Shown in pieces: positions 2,206 through 10,513 of a stretch of DNA of 10,513 nt. This DNA is from Deltaproteobacteria bacterium (GTDB taxonomy: Bacteria; UBA10199; 2-02-FULL-44-16). The notes beneath the pieces are model-generated. The model was not told where the DNA came from, searched no databases, and saw only the letters and a list, made by a program, of their open reading frames with translations. The DNA lies in the NCBI GenBank assembly GCA_016203825.1, contig JACQMA010000124.1, positions 1 through 10,513 on the forward strand. Direction: 5' to 3'. The translations under genes and the position numbers were made by a program. The first letter of the stretch is position 1; every line of letters begins with the position of its first letter.

Positions 2206-2241
2206 CCTTTCTTAGGGACGTGAGTGAAAGAAAGCAATCAT
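2206..2241 (-). promoter_or_regulatory. Mutase ribosome site in a possible weak hairpin, preceded by a 9-codon mini-ORF
   Basis: In the 37-bp gap between pdxA and the mutase gene, the likely ribosome site AAGAAAGG (2213-2206) is partly complementary to CTTTCTT (2234-2228). This allows a 7-bp stem with a 14-nt loop. A mini-ORF reading MIAFFHSRP begins at ATG 2241, sharing ATGA with the pdxA stop, and ends with TAA at 2214-2212 inside the ribosome site. Ribosomes leaving pdxA could run through this mini-ORF, open the stem and stop at the mutase start region. The bases are directly visible. The coupling is inference, and the stem is short and A/T-rich. Confidence 0.25.
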
Positions 2242-3119
2242 TTTAACTTTGCCGCGAGTTCAATCGCCGCGATCATGCCCCTCGGATCGGCGATTCCTTT
2301 TCCAGCGATGTCTTCGGCGGTGCCGTGGGCGGGATCGGTGCGGACGAACGGGAGTCCTAACGTCATATTGACGACGTGACCGGCGCCTAAAAGTTTCGCG
2401 GGGATCAAACCTTGATCGTGGTACATGGCAATGACGGCGTCATATGAAGGAGATCTTTTAAAAAAACTATCCGCGGGAAAAGGGCCTGTGCAGTTGATTC
2501 CTTGACGACGCGCTTCTTCGATCGCGGGGATGATGGTTTCGATTTCTTCTCGACCGAGTGCTCCGTTTTCACCTGCGTGCGGATTGAGTCCCAAGACCGC
2601 GATGTGGGGTGACGCGATGCCAAAGTGTTCGCGCATGCCTTGTGCGGTGATACGAATCGTCATGAGTATTTTTTCCGATGTCAGTGAACGTGAAACTTCT
2701 GCGATCGGGATGTGAACGGTGGTGAGGACGATACATGTAGGGGCGGTTCGCGAACCGCCCCTACCTTTTTGCAACACAAACATCATCACCACATCTTTGA
2801 CACCAAACGCCTTCGCCAAATATCCCGTGTGGCCTGTGAAGTCAGGGACGAGCTGCTGCAGCCGTGCCTTATTCACCGGTGCGGTGACGAGAGAGGTGAT
2901 CTCACCCGTCTTGATGGCCGCAATGGCAGCATCGAGGGCGGTGAGTGCGATTTTCGCAGCATCGGTTTCAGATGGTGTGCGTGGATCGAGGGAGCAATCA
3001 CCGAAGATGCGACAGCGTTTTCGAATGGCGTCGGGAAGTTGCGCCAGTGCTTTCGCGACGACCTCGGGCCCAATGCCCTTCGGGTCACCCGTAGCAATGC
3101 CAATGAGATGTTCTTTCAT
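2238..3119 (-). CDS. pdxA: 4-hydroxythreonine-4-phosphate dehydrogenase PdxA, with an in-frame repeat-derived insertion
   Basis: PdxA carries out the NAD-dependent oxidation of 4-phosphohydroxy-L-threonine in the DXP-dependent route to pyridoxal 5'-phosphate. The 293-residue product shows the family motifs in order: GDPKGIGPEV (11-20), APVNKARL, GHTGYLAKAF with H97, LNPHAGENG with H181, GPFPADSFF, YDAVIAMYHDQG with H234, and NMTLGLPFVRTDPAHGTAEDIAGKG. The three histidines match the divalent-metal ligands known for the E. coli enzyme, so activity is likely. It is shorter than E. coli PdxA (about 329), mainly in the N-terminal third. Residues about 119-128 (GRGGSRTAPT) are encoded by a 28-bp palindrome and lie between two core strands, VVMMFV and CIVLTTVHIPI. 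From memory of the E. coli protein, this loop is about eight residues longer here. ATG at 3119 overlaps the surA stop as ATGA and has no clear ribosome site, which suggests translational coupling. Confidence 0.95.
   Translation of the reverse strand: MKEHLIGIATGDPKGIGPEVVAKALAQLPDAIRKRCRIFGDCSLDPRTPSETDAAKIALTALDAAIAAIKTGEITSLVTAPVNKARLQQLVPDFTGHTGYLAKAFGVKDVVMMFVLQKGRGGSRTAPTCIVLTTVHIPIAEVSRSLTSEKILMTIRITAQGMREHFGIASPHIAVLGLNPHAGENGALGREEIETIIPAIEEARRQGINCTGPFPADSFFKRSPSYDAVIAMYHDQGLIPAKLLGAGHVVNMTLGLPFVRTDPAHGTAEDIAGKGIADPRGMIAAIELAAKLK
2737..2764. repeat. Perfect 28-bp palindrome inserted in frame in pdxA
   Basis: The left arm is GTAGGGGCGGTTCG and the right arm is its exact reverse complement, with the dyad centre between 2750 and 2751 (TCG|CGA). 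Symmetry breaks at 2736/2765. In the pdxA frame it encodes the core of GRGGSRTAPT. G+C-rich palindromes of this GTAGGGGCG...CGCCCCTAC form occur, to my knowledge, as dispersed repeats in many environmental bacterial genomes, and RGGSRTAP-like peptides turn up where they lie in genes. I found no second copy in this window, so the mobile-repeat assignment rests on the perfect dyad, the extra loop in PdxA and prior knowledge. I see no clear target-site duplication. The palindrome is 28 bp, not a multiple of three, so the inserted unit probably included flanking bases. Confidence 0.85.
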
Positions 3120-3982: not shown

Positions 3983-6900
3983 GATCGTTGCGGCTCGCTA
4001 ACACAGGCAAGGAGTGCACTCAAGGCCTTTTTGGCCTCCTCGAGGATCGTGGTTTCGTCGCCGGCGAGGCTCGCTGCGTGTACGAGGCGGTTGGGGGGCA
4101 CAAGTCGCCACTGGTGTGGTTCACGCGCAATCAGGGCCGAAAGTTTTTGGGGATGGAGCGGGGTTTCGCGATCGACTTGAAAGATGAATTGTTGCTTCGC
4201 GAACGAAATGTTGGTGAGTCGCAAGTGTTTCGCGAGGAATTTGATCGACATGACCTTCAAGAGATTTTCTGCCTCACGAGGGAGCGGCCCAAAACGGTCC
4301 TGCCACTCCGTGCGGGTGGCAGTGATGTCAGATTCCTTTTCTCCATTCGTGAGTCTTCGGTACAGGTCGATGCGGGTGACTTCGTCGGCGACATACGTTG
4401 AAGGGAGAAACGCATCGACGCCGAGGTTCAGCTCGGGATCAATCGCTTCCGCTTCGAGTTCACCCTTCATGCCGCGGATCGTGCGGGCGAGCAATTTGTT
4501 GAAGAGATCGAGACCGACCGCGGCAATGTGCCCCGATTGCGCCGACCCCAAAATATTGCCGCCGCCGCGGAGTTCCAGATCGTGCATCGCGATCCGAAAG
4601 CCGCTCCCGAGTTCGGTGTACCGCGTGAGGGCGGCAAGCCTGCGTTTTGCGATGAGCGTGATTTCTCCTTCGGCGGGAGTTAAGAGATAGGCGAAAGCCT
4701 TCGCACTCGAGCGTCCCACGCGCCCGCGCAGTTGGTAGAGTTGCGCTAGTCCAAACGTGTCGGCGCGATGAATGATGATCGTATTCGCATTCGGAATGTC
4801 GAGCCCTGACTCAATAATCGCGGTGCACAACAAGACATCGAACTCGCGGTGAAAAAAACCGATCATCACCTTTTCCAGATCCCGCTCCTTCATTTGGCCG
4901 TGGGCGACGGCCATGCGGGCTTCGGGAACAATCGTAGCGAGTCTCTGTCGCATCGCCTCGATCGTTTGGACGCGATTGTGGACGAAGAAGACCTGTCCGC
5001 CGCGTTCCAGTTCGTGTCGAATCGCGTGACGAACGATCCCTTCATCGAAGGGCGCAACATGGGTCGCAATCGACTGGCGGTTGGCTGGTGGAGTATTAAT
5101 GATGCTGATGTCACGCAGACCCGAAAGCGCAACGTTGAGTGTGCGCGGGATCGGTGTTGCTGTCAGCGTGATGATGTCCACGGTTGCTTTGAGTTTTTTG
5201 AGGCGCTCCTTGTGCTCGACGCCGAAGCGGTGTTCTTCGTCGACGACGATAAGACCCAAGTCCCGGAATTCGACATCGGGTTGAAGCAATCGGTGCGTGC
5301 CGATCACGATATCGCGTTTGCCGTGTTTCAGTTCAGCGAGAATCTCCCGCTGTTCTGTGGTACTTCGAAAACGAGAGAGCATCTCGATGCGTAACGGCGT
5401 GCTCGCAAAGCGTGCGGTGAAGGTTTCAAAATGCTGAAAGGCAAGCACCGTTGTGGGGACCAGCACCGCGACTTGTTTTCCCGACATCGCCACGCGAAAG
5501 GTCGCGCGCATCGCGACTTCGGTTTTGCCGTAGCCAACATCGCCGCAGATGAGCCGATCCATCGGTTTGGCGTCGTCCATATCGCGCATGGTGTCGCCGA
5601 TGGCCGTGAGCTGGTCGGGTGTTTCGTCATACGGAAACAGCGCACAAAATTCTTCGTAGACGTGATCCGTCGGCGGAAAGGCGATGCCAGAACGCAGTGT
5701 CCGCAGCGCGTGGATTTTCAAAAGGTCCCGCGCGATCGTCATGATCTCGTGCCGGACTTTTTTCTGCGCCGTTGCCCACCGCGTTCCGCCGAGACGATCG
5801 ACGAGCGGAATCGCGTCACCCGAACCGATGTAGCGCTCGACGAGATTCAAGCGGTAGACGGGAAGGTAGAGTTTGTCGCCGCCCAGGTATTCGAGGATCA
5901 AAAAGTCGCCCCGTTGTCCCGCAACCTCGAGGTGTTGGAGGCCCAGATATTTTCCAATGCCGTGTTGTTCGTGGACGAGGAGATCGCCCGGACCGATTTC
6001 GGAAAAAGAGGAAAAGGCTTCCGTCGGTGGACGACTGGTGCGCCGCGCGATGTGTTTTTGGCCAAAGAGTTCATCCTCGGCAATGATCACCAGTTGCTCA
6101 GCATCCCAACGGAAGCCCTGGGAGAGGCGACCGATCTGGAACGTCAGGGGAATCTCGTACGGCGCAAAGAGGTGGCGAAGTCGCTCGATCATGGGCTCGG
6201 TGTGACTGACCACCGTGATGCGTGTGCCGCTCTCGTGCCACCCGCGAAAACGCTCCATGAGCGGTTCGAGCGCTGCTGCTATTTTGAGATCGGTGTTGGC
6301 GACGGTGTCGACGGTGATCGTGGGTGCATGACCTCCATTCAGTTCCAGTTTTTGAAATGCGGCGAGCGACGCTGTCCATTCGTCGGCGTCTTGGGTGATG
6401 AGATGCGGCGAGATGATCCGCTCGGGACTCGTGCTGGATTGGTGGAGGTCGGCTATCGCCGTATGAAATTTTTTGATGTTCGTTTCGATGAGGAGGGGAT
6501 CGTCGAGGATGACGAGCGTGGTTTCGGGGAGATATTCGGCCAATGTCGTCGTCCGCTCGTGAAAGAGGGGAAAGAAGGTGTCGATGCCGGCAAACGCGAT
6601 GCCTTCTTTGAGTTGATCGAGGAGCGCGCGGCGTTCGGCGGCGGGGAGATCCGCCTCGTCGGCGAGATCGCGCATGCGTTTTCCGGCGAGCCCTCGGGAC
6701 TCCGTTGAAAAAGGAAACTCGCGGACGGGGAGGAGTTCGATGTCCTTCCGATCACCATGCGAGCGCTGGGTCGCCGGGTTGAAAAGCCGCATCGAGACGA
6801 TGCGGTCGCCATCATACTCAAGGCGTATCGGTTGGGGCGAGGCCGGTGGCCAGAGGTCCACGATGCCGCCGCGCTTTGAAAACGAACCTTCGTCTTCGAC

Positions 6901-7425: not shown

Positions 7426-8649
7426 ATGGGGAATGACCCTCAAGTCGATATCGGAACTCTCGGCAGTCAGGAACTCTCGACGGCATTTTCGCGCCTATTA
7501 GAGCTTCAAGATACCGGTGCCGCACCGTCGGTCATCGAAGATGCGGCGGCGAAACTCAATGAGCTTGCCGTCAAAGAGGGTTTTCAGCTCCGCGAGGTCC
7601 TTCCGCATTTCATCAAGCAAACGGCACAGATGGTCAATGCGCAAAAGGTCTATCAGCATTTTCGTCTGCCCGGGAAGGATCGCATTGTCGAAGACCGTCG
7701 TGAGCGACCCCATGGTGACAAAGCCCCTGATCGCGCCGAACAGAAAAAGGGGGAGGAGAGAGAAGCGAGGGCCGAAAAAGAAGGACTCACGCTGAAACGC
7801 GGAACGCTCGTTTCGGATCGTCCGAAAGACTACAAAAATTATTTGGGTGATCGCTCTTCGCTGAGTGCTTCCCCCGAACAGCAAGCAGCGACGGAACGCG
7901 TCGAACGACTCCTCTCGGCTTTTGAGCGGTTGGTGATTGCGCGTTTTGAAGGGGGCCGCGAGATCGTCCAGGCCTTCGTGAATGGAGAGGTACGTTTTGG
8001 AGGAAAGACGATCGATGAGTGGCGCCAGTTTTTTGCCAACATGGGCGATCGAAGCGTAGCACGAAAAACGCTGCTCGCCGAAATTCAGGAATTTCTCTTT
8101 CGCGGCGTCATCCCGAAGGGAGAGCGCGGCGTTGTCATCGCCGATATGACGCACGCAAACGGTCGCGTCGAAAAATTTGTGCGCTTCGGGGTCATTGCCG
8201 AGGCCTTGGCGAAACTTAAAAGTCTTGTTCCGGGACAGACTTTTGGGAAGGAAGCACTTGCAGGTCTCACGGGAGAGGAACTCGTCTACCTCTCACTTGC
8301 AACCGCTCGTGGGACGGGCTTCACCATGAGCGATGCCCCAACACTCGGAAAATTTATGGGAGGGGCGTCAGAGGCACGTGCGGCGCAAGAATTGGGGATC
8401 GCCCTCGAAGGGCAACTGCACGCGAAGACGCAGCTCCTCAAACGTCGTGGCAAAGGACCCGGTGGCTTTCGCTGGCTCGACAAAGAAATTCCCGAGGAAA
8501 CTCCCTCTCAGTTTGTCCCGTGGTGGAAGTGGGGCAACCTCTATCGCCCCAGCAAAACCAAATGGCTCACCATTATGATGTACCTGTCGCTGCTCACCAT
8601 TTCGATGATTGCGATGGGAACGATTATAACTCGACTGATGTTTCCCTAA
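7426..8649 (+). CDS. Hypothetical protein with charged linker and single C-terminal membrane anchor
   Basis: I do not recognise this 407-residue protein. It has no signal peptide. Residues 1-75 look helical and soluble (SQELSTAFSRLLELQDTG, IEDAAAKLNELAVKEGF). Residues about 84-125 form a strongly charged, probably disordered linker rich in R, E, K and D. Residues about 145-370 look like a folded domain with segments such as VERLLSAFERLVIARFEGG, GKTIDEWRQFFANMG and GLTGEELVYLSLATARGTG. An aromatic stretch, PWWKWGNLYRPSKTKW, precedes one hydrophobic helix (about 380-404), and only a few residues follow. It is therefore probably tail-anchored, with the bulk in the cytoplasm. No catalytic motif is evident. 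ATG at 7426 is the first in frame after the promoter zone, with only a weak GAG upstream. It is the only plus-strand gene, diverges from mfd, and its TAA stop is one base from the convergent lipoprotein stop. No link to either neighbour can be argued from the sequence. Confidence 0.85.
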   Translation: MGNDPQVDIGTLGSQELSTAFSRLLELQDTGAAPSVIEDAAAKLNELAVKEGFQLREVLPHFIKQTAQMVNAQKVYQHFRLPGKDRIVEDRRERPHGDKAPDRAEQKKGEEREARAEKEGLTLKRGTLVSDRPKDYKNYLGDRSSLSASPEQQAATERVERLLSAFERLVIARFEGGREIVQAFVNGEVRFGGKTIDEWRQFFANMGDRSVARKTLLAEIQEFLFRGVIPKGERGVVIADMTHANGRVEKFVRFGVIAEALAKLKSLVPGQTFGKEALAGLTGEELVYLSLATARGTGFTMSDAPTLGKFMGGASEARAAQELGIALEGQLHAKTQLLKRRGKGPGGFRWLDKEIPEETPSQFVPWWKWGNLYRPSKTKWLTIMMYLSLLTISMIAMGTIITRLMFP

Positions 8650-8650
8650 A

Positions 8651-8920
8651 TTATTTCATTCCTTGTGATTCAATCTGCAACTTCAACTCTTTGATTTTGG
8701 CTTCGGTTTTTTGCTGTTGAAGAGACATATGTTCCTTGTTCTGTGGGTGATACACCCTTGAGAGGGGAATCGGGAGACGTGGTGGAGGCTGCTGATGCTG
8801 GTCACCGATGAGGAGTTCCTCGGAGGAGTGTTCTTGCTCAGAAGTGTTGGTCCTTGTTGGACAGGCACTCAGAAGAAGGGCAGCAAGCAACACAAAAGCA
8901 CTGAGGGCCATCCGGGTCAT
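8651..8920 (-). CDS. Small putative outer-membrane lipoprotein
   Basis: The 89-residue product begins MTRMALSAFVLLAALLLSAC, a signal peptide with a classic lipobox LSAC, so lipidation at C20 is expected. The residue after the cysteine is proline, not aspartate. Under the Lol +2 rule known from enterobacteria, that favours the outer membrane. The mature part of about 70 residues is hydrophilic, with a proline-rich stretch (QQPPPRLPIPL, 43-53) and a C-terminal helix likely to form a coiled coil (MSLQQQKTEAKIKELKLQIESQ, 65-86, in overlapping heptad-like spacing). The family is unknown. ATG at 8920 is chosen over an upstream in-frame start at 9013, because it puts the signal peptide at the N-terminus, forms TGATG with the upstream stop, and has AAGGAGAGG seven bases before it. 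ATG at 8911 (M4) is a minor alternative. The overlap suggests co-translation and a role shared with the upstream cysteine-rich protein. Confidence 0.8.
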   Translation of the reverse strand: MTRMALSAFVLLAALLLSACPTRTNTSEQEHSSEELLIGDQHQQPPPRLPIPLSRVYHPQNKEHMSLQQQKTEAKIKELKLQIESQGMK

Positions 8921-10513
8921 CAGGGTGCCTCTCCTTCCACCGGTACGGTGCACGGATTGTGTTGCGGTGACGAGGGAGTCACGGCCCCTGCTTCGGCAAG
9001 AAGCGCCGGACACTGACCTGCATATTCGCTCAACGCGTTTTGGAGGGTTACGTCAACGCCGGCGCGAAGAAACGCTTCGTTGATTACAGCCCGCACAATG
9101 ATGTTCTCACTGCGGAGGGCATCAAGGAGATTGGCTGGTGCGACGGTTTCGATCGATGTCCCCGGTGTGGCCATGCGGTACCAGATATCCGCAAGGAGAG
9201 AACAGAGAGCCGTTTGCGCACGCCGACGGATGTGGTCACCCTGGACGTTGCACCACGTATTATCGGGGCAGAAAAAGATTTCATTGATCAGAAAAACCGT
9301 CTGGTTTGAGACCGCTGAAAACATTTCGAGTGGAAAGGTTGCAGCTGCCCCTCTCGAGGGATCAGGAGGTGTTGCAATGCACACACTCGGATGGGTATCG
9401 ATGAAATAGGCGCACTGGTGGTTCCAATTCCATGCGTCGTCGGTGCGGATTTCGTCGAACGTGGTGTTGGAGATGATATCCGTTGTGCTGATGGAGCTGC
9501 TTCCGGGCGGGTTGTCACCGGCGACACAAAAGCGAACAGGGGGGTAATTGAAATCAAACCGGCCGCCGGAAGTGAAGGAGTCTGCAAAATCGCGGTAGCT
9601 GCGATAGTGTGTCTTGGCACCGATCCGCTCGACATCAAAAACGAGTCCGTGTGGCTGAAGACGCCCGCCGAGCGAGAGTTCGACGATGGCGCAGGTGGTG
9701 GCGTCGTCATCTCCTCCGGCGAGTATCGCAGCGTGACGCAGGGGAAATGGAAGCCGGTTGATACAGACGTCGGCATCAATCTCGCCAAAAATGTTGCTGC
9801 GAAAGTAGAAGTTTTCAACGGATCCCCGAAGGAGGGCAGCAAAGTCATTATCGTCTTGGATGTTATCGGCCGCTTCAATGAGCGGGTTGTTGATGGCCTT
9901 GTTGATTTCCTCTGTCAGCTCAAAGAGCCAGTCACCGAGTTCCACAAAGAGATAAATAATGGGTGCGGTCACATAGCGAATGACGTTCTCTGTCTGTTCG
10001 GGCAGGCAGCCGCCAAAAAGATCGATGAGGGCATCAATCAACCTTCCGTCACCGAAGGCCTCCCAGGCGTCGGAGCAGGCATCGAACGTCCATTCGTAAC
10101 CGAACGAATACTGAACCCCGGGCGACGAGGTGACGAGTCGACGAATTCCAATGCCAACACCTTCCCGGAGCTCATCATCATTAGCGGCCGGCTGTGAGTT
10201 GGGAAGCTGGCGGATGTTCCCCATGATTTCTGCCGTCGAGTCATCAAGGTCGACGATATGCTCATTCGGAATCGTCCACAGGACGGCCATATTCATTGCA
10301 TTTGCGACGATCGTGACCCATCCCGAAATGATGATTTCGACGAGGCGAATAAACCATCCGAGAAGCCAACCCCAGACACGCTGTCGCAGCCATTCCGAGG
10401 CCGAAGCAAAGAGACGAAATTCGACGATGAGACTCCCCGAATCAAAGAGGAGTTTGAGTCGTCCGAGATGAAGGTTTGTCGAAAAATCGATTCCGGCTGC
10501 AGAAACCACATAC
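8920..10513 (-). CDS. Large cysteine-rich membrane-associated protein of unknown family, 5' end outside window
   Basis: The minus frame is open from the right edge to TGA at 8922-8920. The first possible start in the window is GTG at 10509, but no ribosome site can be seen there and the frame stays open to the edge, so the true start is probably outside. Numbering from 10509 gives 529 residues. A strong hydrophobic stretch spans about 46-79 (VWGWLLGWFIRLVEIIISGW, then VTIVANAMNMAVLWTI), and a weaker one about 176-197. All twelve cysteines lie after these or near the second segment (144, 168, 249, 273, 328, 366, 377, 414, 420, 436, 500, 520). An even number in a long polar region suggests an exported, disulphide-bonded domain. 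CPDNTWC is a C-x5-C pair. I recognise no family. A secretion- or conjugation-related envelope protein is one possibility, without direct support. It is joined by a TGATG overlap to the small lipoprotein downstream, which supports an envelope location. Confidence 0.8.
   Translation of the reverse strand, partial: YVVSAAGIDFSTNLHLGRLKLLFDSGSLIVEFRLFASASEWLRQRVWGWLLGWFIRLVEIIISGWVTIVANAMNMAVLWTIPNEHIVDLDDSTAEIMGNIRQLPNSQPAANDDELREGVGIGIRRLVTSSPGVQYSFGYEWTFDACSDAWEAFGDGRLIDALIDLFGGCLPEQTENVIRYVTAPIIYLFVELGDWLFELTEEINKAINNPLIEAADNIQDDNDFAALLRGSVENFYFRSNIFGEIDADVCINRLPFPLRHAAILAGGDDDATTCAIVELSLGGRLQPHGLVFDVERIGAKTHYRSYRDFADSFTSGGRFDFNYPPVRFCVAGDNPPGSSSISTTDIISNTTFDEIRTDDAWNWNHQCAYFIDTHPSVCIATPPDPSRGAAATFPLEMFSAVSNQTVFLINEIFFCPDNTWCNVQGDHIRRRAQTALCSLLADIWYRMATPGTSIETVAPANLLDALRSENIIVRAVINEAFLRAGVDVTLQNALSEYAGQCPALLAEAGAVTPSSPQHNPCTVPVEGEAP
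8928..8936 (-). promoter_or_regulatory. Strong ribosome binding site for the lipoprotein, inside the upstream gene
   Basis: AAGGAGAGG on the minus strand lies within the last codons of the cysteine-rich protein gene, seven bases before the lipoprotein ATG at 8920. It is the best ribosome site in the window and decides the lipoprotein start. Together with the TGATG overlap it indicates both re-initiation and independent loading, so the lipoprotein may be made in excess of its partner. Confidence 0.65.

Follow-up and report, generated by a model that had tools for sequence, protein, structure and literature searches.

A GTAG-ended palindrome in pdxA is very probably one copy of a REP-like element integrated in genes throughout a bacterial genome

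The perfect palindrome carried by pdxA, the gene of a vitamin B6 enzyme, in the window (the whole stretch of DNA analysed here, 10,513 nucleotides) is, in our judgement, very probably a copy of a REP-like element, short and dispersed, which has GTAG at both ends, has integrated in genes genome-wide and survives in frame. According to the proposed mechanism, copies would integrate into genes across the genome with the loss of up to about 28 target bases, and the survivors would be those copies which leave the reading frame intact and do not fall into the frame where GTAG is read as a TAG stop; the spread itself might proceed by single-strand cleavage via an HUH transposase of the TnpA-REP (RAYT) type. 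REPs have been described as extragenic, whereas the REP-like element studied here is found mainly in housekeeping genes and supplies their codons. The resulting collection, about twenty natural insertions of near-identical segments of nine to ten residues into different enzymes, is a data set for where proteins tolerate insertions.

Table 1. Coordinates of the palindrome and of the related pdxA features in the window.
Feature	Position	Strand	Remark
Perfect 28-bp palindrome (REP-like element), GTAG at each end	2737..2764	.	13 exact genome copies
pdxA, 4-hydroxythreonine-4-phosphate dehydrogenase, 293 aa, read through the palindrome	2238..3119	-	
Codons of residues 119-128 (GRGGSRTAPT): palindrome plus 1 base on either side	2736..2765	-	
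Codon of H136, aligned with E. coli H166, eight residues past the segment	2712..2714	-	PDB alignment

An earlier note on this DNA had described a perfect palindrome, and the sequence GTAGGGGCGGTTCGCGAACCGCCCCTAC at 2737-2764 is exactly that, being its own reverse complement with GTAG paired to CTAC. A search of the window for the 14-base arm (at most 2 mismatches) found nothing beyond the palindrome's own two arms (shuffle mean 0.08). In the 1.1 Mb draft genome the 28-mer was found at 19 places with at most 3 mismatches, 13 of them exact, against 0 for the control pattern, thus the possibility left by the note that the palindrome occurs nowhere else in the genome is clearly not what was found. 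Palindromes with exact arms, GTAGGGGC...GCCCCTAC, number 22 in the genome and have at least 4 different cores, among them ACGGCATGCCGT and GATTCGCGAATC; the 28-base arm pattern was found at 32 places, with GTAG at both ends, and its arms are exact in 21 of these. The palindrome is a dispersed repeat family, and the near-identity of the copies supports the idea that the element has been mobile recently. A chance palindrome was ruled out by the copy number in the genome (control 0) and by the shuffles, and a known structured RNA by the window, which had 0 Rfam matches at gathering thresholds. An element mainly of plasmids or phages was rejected on the plasmid and IMG/VR matches, which amounted to a single plasmid record (92% identity over 83% of the query, E 0.1) and to the exact 28-mer in 4 IMG/VR stretches.

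The distribution of the copies was evaluated on a curated set of 32, namely 31 copies with at most 2 mismatches to the arm pattern and a 32-bp copy on contig C79, with open frames and Pfam matches as the basis of the curation. At up to 3 mismatches the arm pattern gave 16 control matches, hence only copies with at most 2 were counted, a cut-off which drops the copy in the NAD-dependent DNA ligase gene (C39:6428). Degenerate or variant palindromes (C132:4800, C142:5374 and C124 at about 4862) and a contig-end one (C227:9929) are likewise outside the 32. It was found that 21 of the 32 lie in frame inside 17 Pfam-matched genes and 6 provide a gene's TAG stop, while 5 are intergenic or ambiguous (C79, C115, C116:2245, C132, C159). 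Several in-frame copies are hosted by PriA (three), LeuRS (two) and MurD (two); MurA, PrmC, RsmG, DnaX, SerB, AtpG, PdxA, a PseudoU_synth_2 protein, a metallo-beta-lactamase-fold protein, a 2-oxoacid dehydrogenase acyltransferase, a class III aminotransferase (residues 266-275 of 277), a Methyltransf_4 protein, an AMP-binding enzyme and a CHASE2 cyclase have one each. Nine of these 21 copies fall within one continuous Pfam match (PdxA, metallo-beta-lactamase, AtpG, LeuRS twice, MurA, Methyltransf_4, RsmG, SerB) and six either between two matched domains or where such a domain begins (PriA three, MurD two, PrmC). The remaining six are near an end of the region matched (pseudouridine synthase, acyltransferase, aminotransferase, AMP-binding enzyme, DnaX, cyclase), and for these translation is indicated only by the open frame. 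The TAG stop is supplied to a VTT protein, a Na/Ca exchanger, Thy1, a YjgF-type protein, AtpG and an MlaD protein. The idea of a repeat turned into in-frame protein segments in a lineage far from Rickettsia has therefore held, with 21 of the 32 copies inside genes.

Two further observations concern open frames. The murD gene (own genome contig 124, 4114-5529) contains, besides two exact-arm palindromes, a third, degenerate one at about 4862-4890. The window itself has two long open frames without a Pfam match, at 7426-8649 (407 aa) and 8920-10509 (529 aa).

What the copies do to the length of their hosts was assessed against homologues, mostly of 40-70% identity. A median net gain of at least 2 residues (range 2-9) was obtained at 9 of 12 sites, as against 1 of 307 control windows in the same proteins. 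The comparison used 17 of 30 loci for PdxA, 59 of 120 listed proteins each for MurD and PriA, 12 of 14 loci for LeuRS, 13 of 13 for RsmG, 12 of 14 for MurA and 9 of 14 for PrmC. The median gain is 9 in PdxA (individual values from -11 to 10 among the 17 relatives), 6 in MurA, 7 in PrmC, 3 in RsmG, 2 at PriA 2097 and 6, 2 and 4 at the LeuRS sites, where the 4 belongs to the variant copy C142:5374 outside the 32. At MurD 4453 the gain is 9 (58 of 59 homologues); the closest homologue (P0122, 61% identity) is itself extended at this first MurD site, and over it the gain is 1, not 9. In a wider PrmC set (12 rows) two relatives are longer by 16 and 20 residues and one by 1. There is no net gain at PriA 2049 (0 in 45 of 59 homologues), and the medians at PriA 1454 (0) and MurD 4901 (-18) come from variable regions. 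The PriA copy at 2049-2076 (own genome contig 18), with the AATTAATT core, stands in a segment whose length is conserved; a second copy lies 20 bp away.

The element codes for 9.3 residues and its 28 bases equal 1 mod 3, consequently a clean insertion with neither loss nor duplication of target bases would always shift the frame. Taken together with the variable gains, this suggests that many copy sites seem to have lost target bases; later trimming of the loops might also have contributed. We put forward tentatively, as a doubtful but possible reading, that integration takes place by replacement, in which the 28 bases of the element would be swapped for a variable number of target bases. Replacement of this kind would make in-frame copies possible, and nearly length-neutral copies could then be tolerable even inside structured enzymes; if true, the process would generate protein loops in the core genome of a bacterial family.

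As regards the enzyme behind the spread, the dinucleotide CT stands directly 5' of GTAG in 14 of the 62 flanks of the 32 copies against a background of 4.7% (p 8e-7, before correction for 16 dinucleotides), and the GTAG ends together with this CT excess fit a REP/TnpA-REP (RAYT) system. The pdxA copy itself is flanked by AT and AG, with no CT. The excess was absent in the four other genomes tested (G001, G002, G093 and G106), where the leading flank dinucleotide was AT in G001 (5/14) and G002 (7/33) and CC in G093 (13/36), with none clear in G106. A Y1_Tnp (Y1 transposase) gene was not found in the own draft genome, which is 83.9% complete; such genes are present in 38 of 46 kin-set genomes (own included in the set), among them all three same-family genomes, and one of these, G003, has Y1 genes and lacks palindromes of this class. 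Among relatives, 20 Y1 loci were looked at, and no class palindrome was listed beside any of them. On contig 23 of G002 (3-557) a Y1_Tnp open frame is interrupted in frame by a class palindrome. This locus was considered as a REPtron and rejected, because the palindrome lies inside the Y1_Tnp frame and is read as an insertion into the transposase gene.

It could also be supposed that the element is non-autonomous and was moved by another kind of transposase, or was copied during repair as filler DNA at breaks, and not by TnpA-REP. The draft genome without a Y1 transposase, the Y1 loci of relatives without the palindrome, the variable apparent loss of target DNA and the flanks of 27 copies, in which no consistent target duplication of the kind typical of classical MITEs was seen by eye, all speak for such a mover; the GTAG tags with the CT excess in their flanks, and the Y1 transposases in every same-family genome, speak against it, and we regard it as rather unlikely. 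Under the preferred reading the element would be of REP-type origin, and the enzyme would be either missing from the draft or lost.

Palindromes of the same class are present in 34 of 118 kin-set genomes, own included. The same-family genomes G001, G002 and G003 have 7, 21 and 0 copies, respectively, and the distant genome G093 has 72, with the identical 28-mer in 15 of the 18 copies listed, for which either horizontal spread or convergence might account. The stretches taken from contig 1 of G093 have 64-70% GC. Location was compared across genomes with one automatic ORF model on exact-arm copies. In the own genome it placed 15 copies inside genes, 3 at edges and 4 between genes (of 22), the "inside" call of C140:834 being wrong by curation; the corresponding numbers were 6, 1 and 0 of 7 in G001, 7, 3 and 7 of 17 examined in G002 (21 exist), 5, 4 and 9 of 18 examined in G093 (72 exist), and 0, 2 and 3 of 5 examined in G106 (35 exist). 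The inside share of the own genome (15/22) was tested against the others by uncorrected Fisher tests, with p 0.025 for G093, 0.0098 for G106, 0.11 for G002 and 0.63 for G001. Pfam matches back the inside hosts in 6 of 6 cases in G001 and 4 of 7 in G002, where the remaining three frames comprise one without a Pfam match and two short ones outside the scan; the five "inside" calls in G093 comprise two frames of 104-105 codons, two without a Pfam match and one with the copy ahead of the first match. In-frame hosts in the same family include CysS, HemC, NadC, MutS and UvrD. Within these small samples, the high share of copies inside genes seems to characterise this bacterial family and not the palindrome as such. 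Four of the 7 copies in G001 are 44-46 bp long and appear by eye as head-to-head dimers of GTAG hairpins, whose units, delimited by eye, would have unpaired GTAG at one end only; the 28-bp form could have arisen from such a dimer by collapse.

One may ask whether the internal copies have been kept as useful, for example in mRNA stabilisation or gyrase binding within operons, roles that are discussed for REPs in the part of PMC3733652 drawn on here. This appears distinctly improbable, as the host genes are unrelated and the position of the copy varies from one to the next, genera of one family have different cores, and the segment is absent from the relatives compared at the sites tested.

Translated from its first base, the palindrome yields VGAVREPPL; another frame yields RGGSRTAPT and the remaining one begins with TAG, and since the element is a palindrome the same three readings result from either strand. 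The 21 internal copies divide into 14 of the VGAVREPPL type, 7 of the RGGSRTAPT type and 0 in the TAG frame, this zero being partly by construction because internal status was called from the open frame. The 6 copies in the TAG frame sit at gene ends, 5 of them after the Pfam domain is complete or nearly so. Such frame use agrees with selection acting on copies that are translated. In yeast mitochondria the byp elements are skipped by the ribosome, and the palindrome might similarly be skipped, or removed from the RNA, without ever becoming protein. Its RNA hairpin is indeed stable (centroid of -23.7 kcal/mol over a 68-nt stretch, equalled by 5 of 200 shuffles), but skipping needs neither the avoidance of the TAG frame nor the keeping of the host frame by all internal copies, and this frame bias, together with the TAG copies at gene ends, argues against it and leaves it very little chance.

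In PdxA, translation through the palindrome without a frameshift and a functional enzyme had both been proposed in the earlier note, together with H97, H181 and H234 as metal ligands. The frame at 2238-3119 does run across the palindrome, and the Pfam PdxA match (residues 51-289, E 4.1e-89) spans the coded segment; a frameshifted pdxA was rejected by the open frame, the PDB and 48-sequence alignments and the AlphaFold model. Modelling, a step that had been suggested, places the segment in a hairpin loop between intact strands (111-116 and 128-132), its last residue, 128, being already within the second strand, and the lowest-confidence block of the model contains the segment. H97, H136, H181 and H234 are all invariant in the 48-sequence alignment. 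In the PDB alignment H97 pairs with E. coli H136 and H136 with E. coli H166, and if the zinc ligands of the E. coli enzyme are H166, H211 and H266, as we take them to be, the first ligand here would be H136; the three proposed histidines are therefore conserved, and H97 seems to have been misassigned.

The nearest organism-named homologues are MAGs labelled Deltaproteobacteria. Among 17 aligned relatives the loop region is longer in 3 and shorter by 4-10 residues in 14, thus an equally long loop in all relatives, which would have spoken against an insert, is not seen in 14 of the 17. The claim of an insert is borne out in so far as the segment is absent from the homologues compared, and weakened in so far as this region also differs in length between proteins that lack the repeat. 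A native GC-rich loop turned palindromic by chance or by local quasipalindrome correction, to which this variation and the 3 longer relatives would lend themselves, deserves scarcely any credence, since the very same 28-mer recurs 13 times in the genome, including copies in nine different genes, and a local process would not repeat one sequence. The best explanation, on sequence and model, is that the copy has lengthened a beta-hairpin loop of naturally variable length by about nine residues; as the extra residues fall in such a loop, the enzyme is probably still active, and the segment would be present in the PdxA protein made in the cell and may be neutral for the enzyme.

The Rickettsia palindromic elements (RPEs) had been regarded as the closest precedent. 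They are not the sole one, since GTAG-tagged REPs inside genes of several bacteria were already described by Di Nocera et al. in 2013, in the part of PMC3733652 used here, with more than one REP per gene, many of them in replication and repair genes, and the TAG of GTAG serving as stop codon. No other paper on this element was found in an open-access literature search. A 2024 review (PMC10969869), as far as the sections cited here extend, remarks that proteins may have evolved by a similar mechanism outside Rickettsia, and the present element bears on this remark: as had been anticipated, a comparable element exists in a different lineage, dispersed and mostly inside genes. Repeats of this sort had been known from genes of Rickettsia and a few other bacteria; in the present genome they seem unusually frequent. 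In those sections RPEs are about 150 bp long and belong to Rickettsia; the present element shares with them in-frame insertion of a palindromic repeat in unrelated metabolic genes, and is set apart, by description, by its 28 bp and its other lineage.

With the REP/TnpA-REP (RAYT) system the element has in common the GTAG tag, the hairpin and CT beside GTAG as cleavage site, as TnpA-REP enzymes recognise GTAG and a hairpin and that of E. coli cleaves at CT beside the REP (PMC8266576, in the portion cited); it differs in that no transposase was found in this genome and the CT excess is confined to the 14 of 62 flanks. The likeness is extensive with the GTAG REP superfamily as characterised in the cited part of PMC3733652: a 20-40 bp palindrome in many near-identical dispersed copies, GTAG at an end, several families per genome, copies in replication, repair and tRNA synthetase genes, TAG used as stop and more than one copy per gene. 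GTAG REPs carry an unpaired tag at one end only and are mostly intergenic, and according to the passages used of a 2025 survey (PMC12306157) REPs seldom overlap coding regions, whereas here GTAG and CTAC are paired. As far as the sequences indicate, the element would thus differ from known REPs as a two-tailed perfect palindrome with an intragenic majority of copies and a variable, replacement-like gain.
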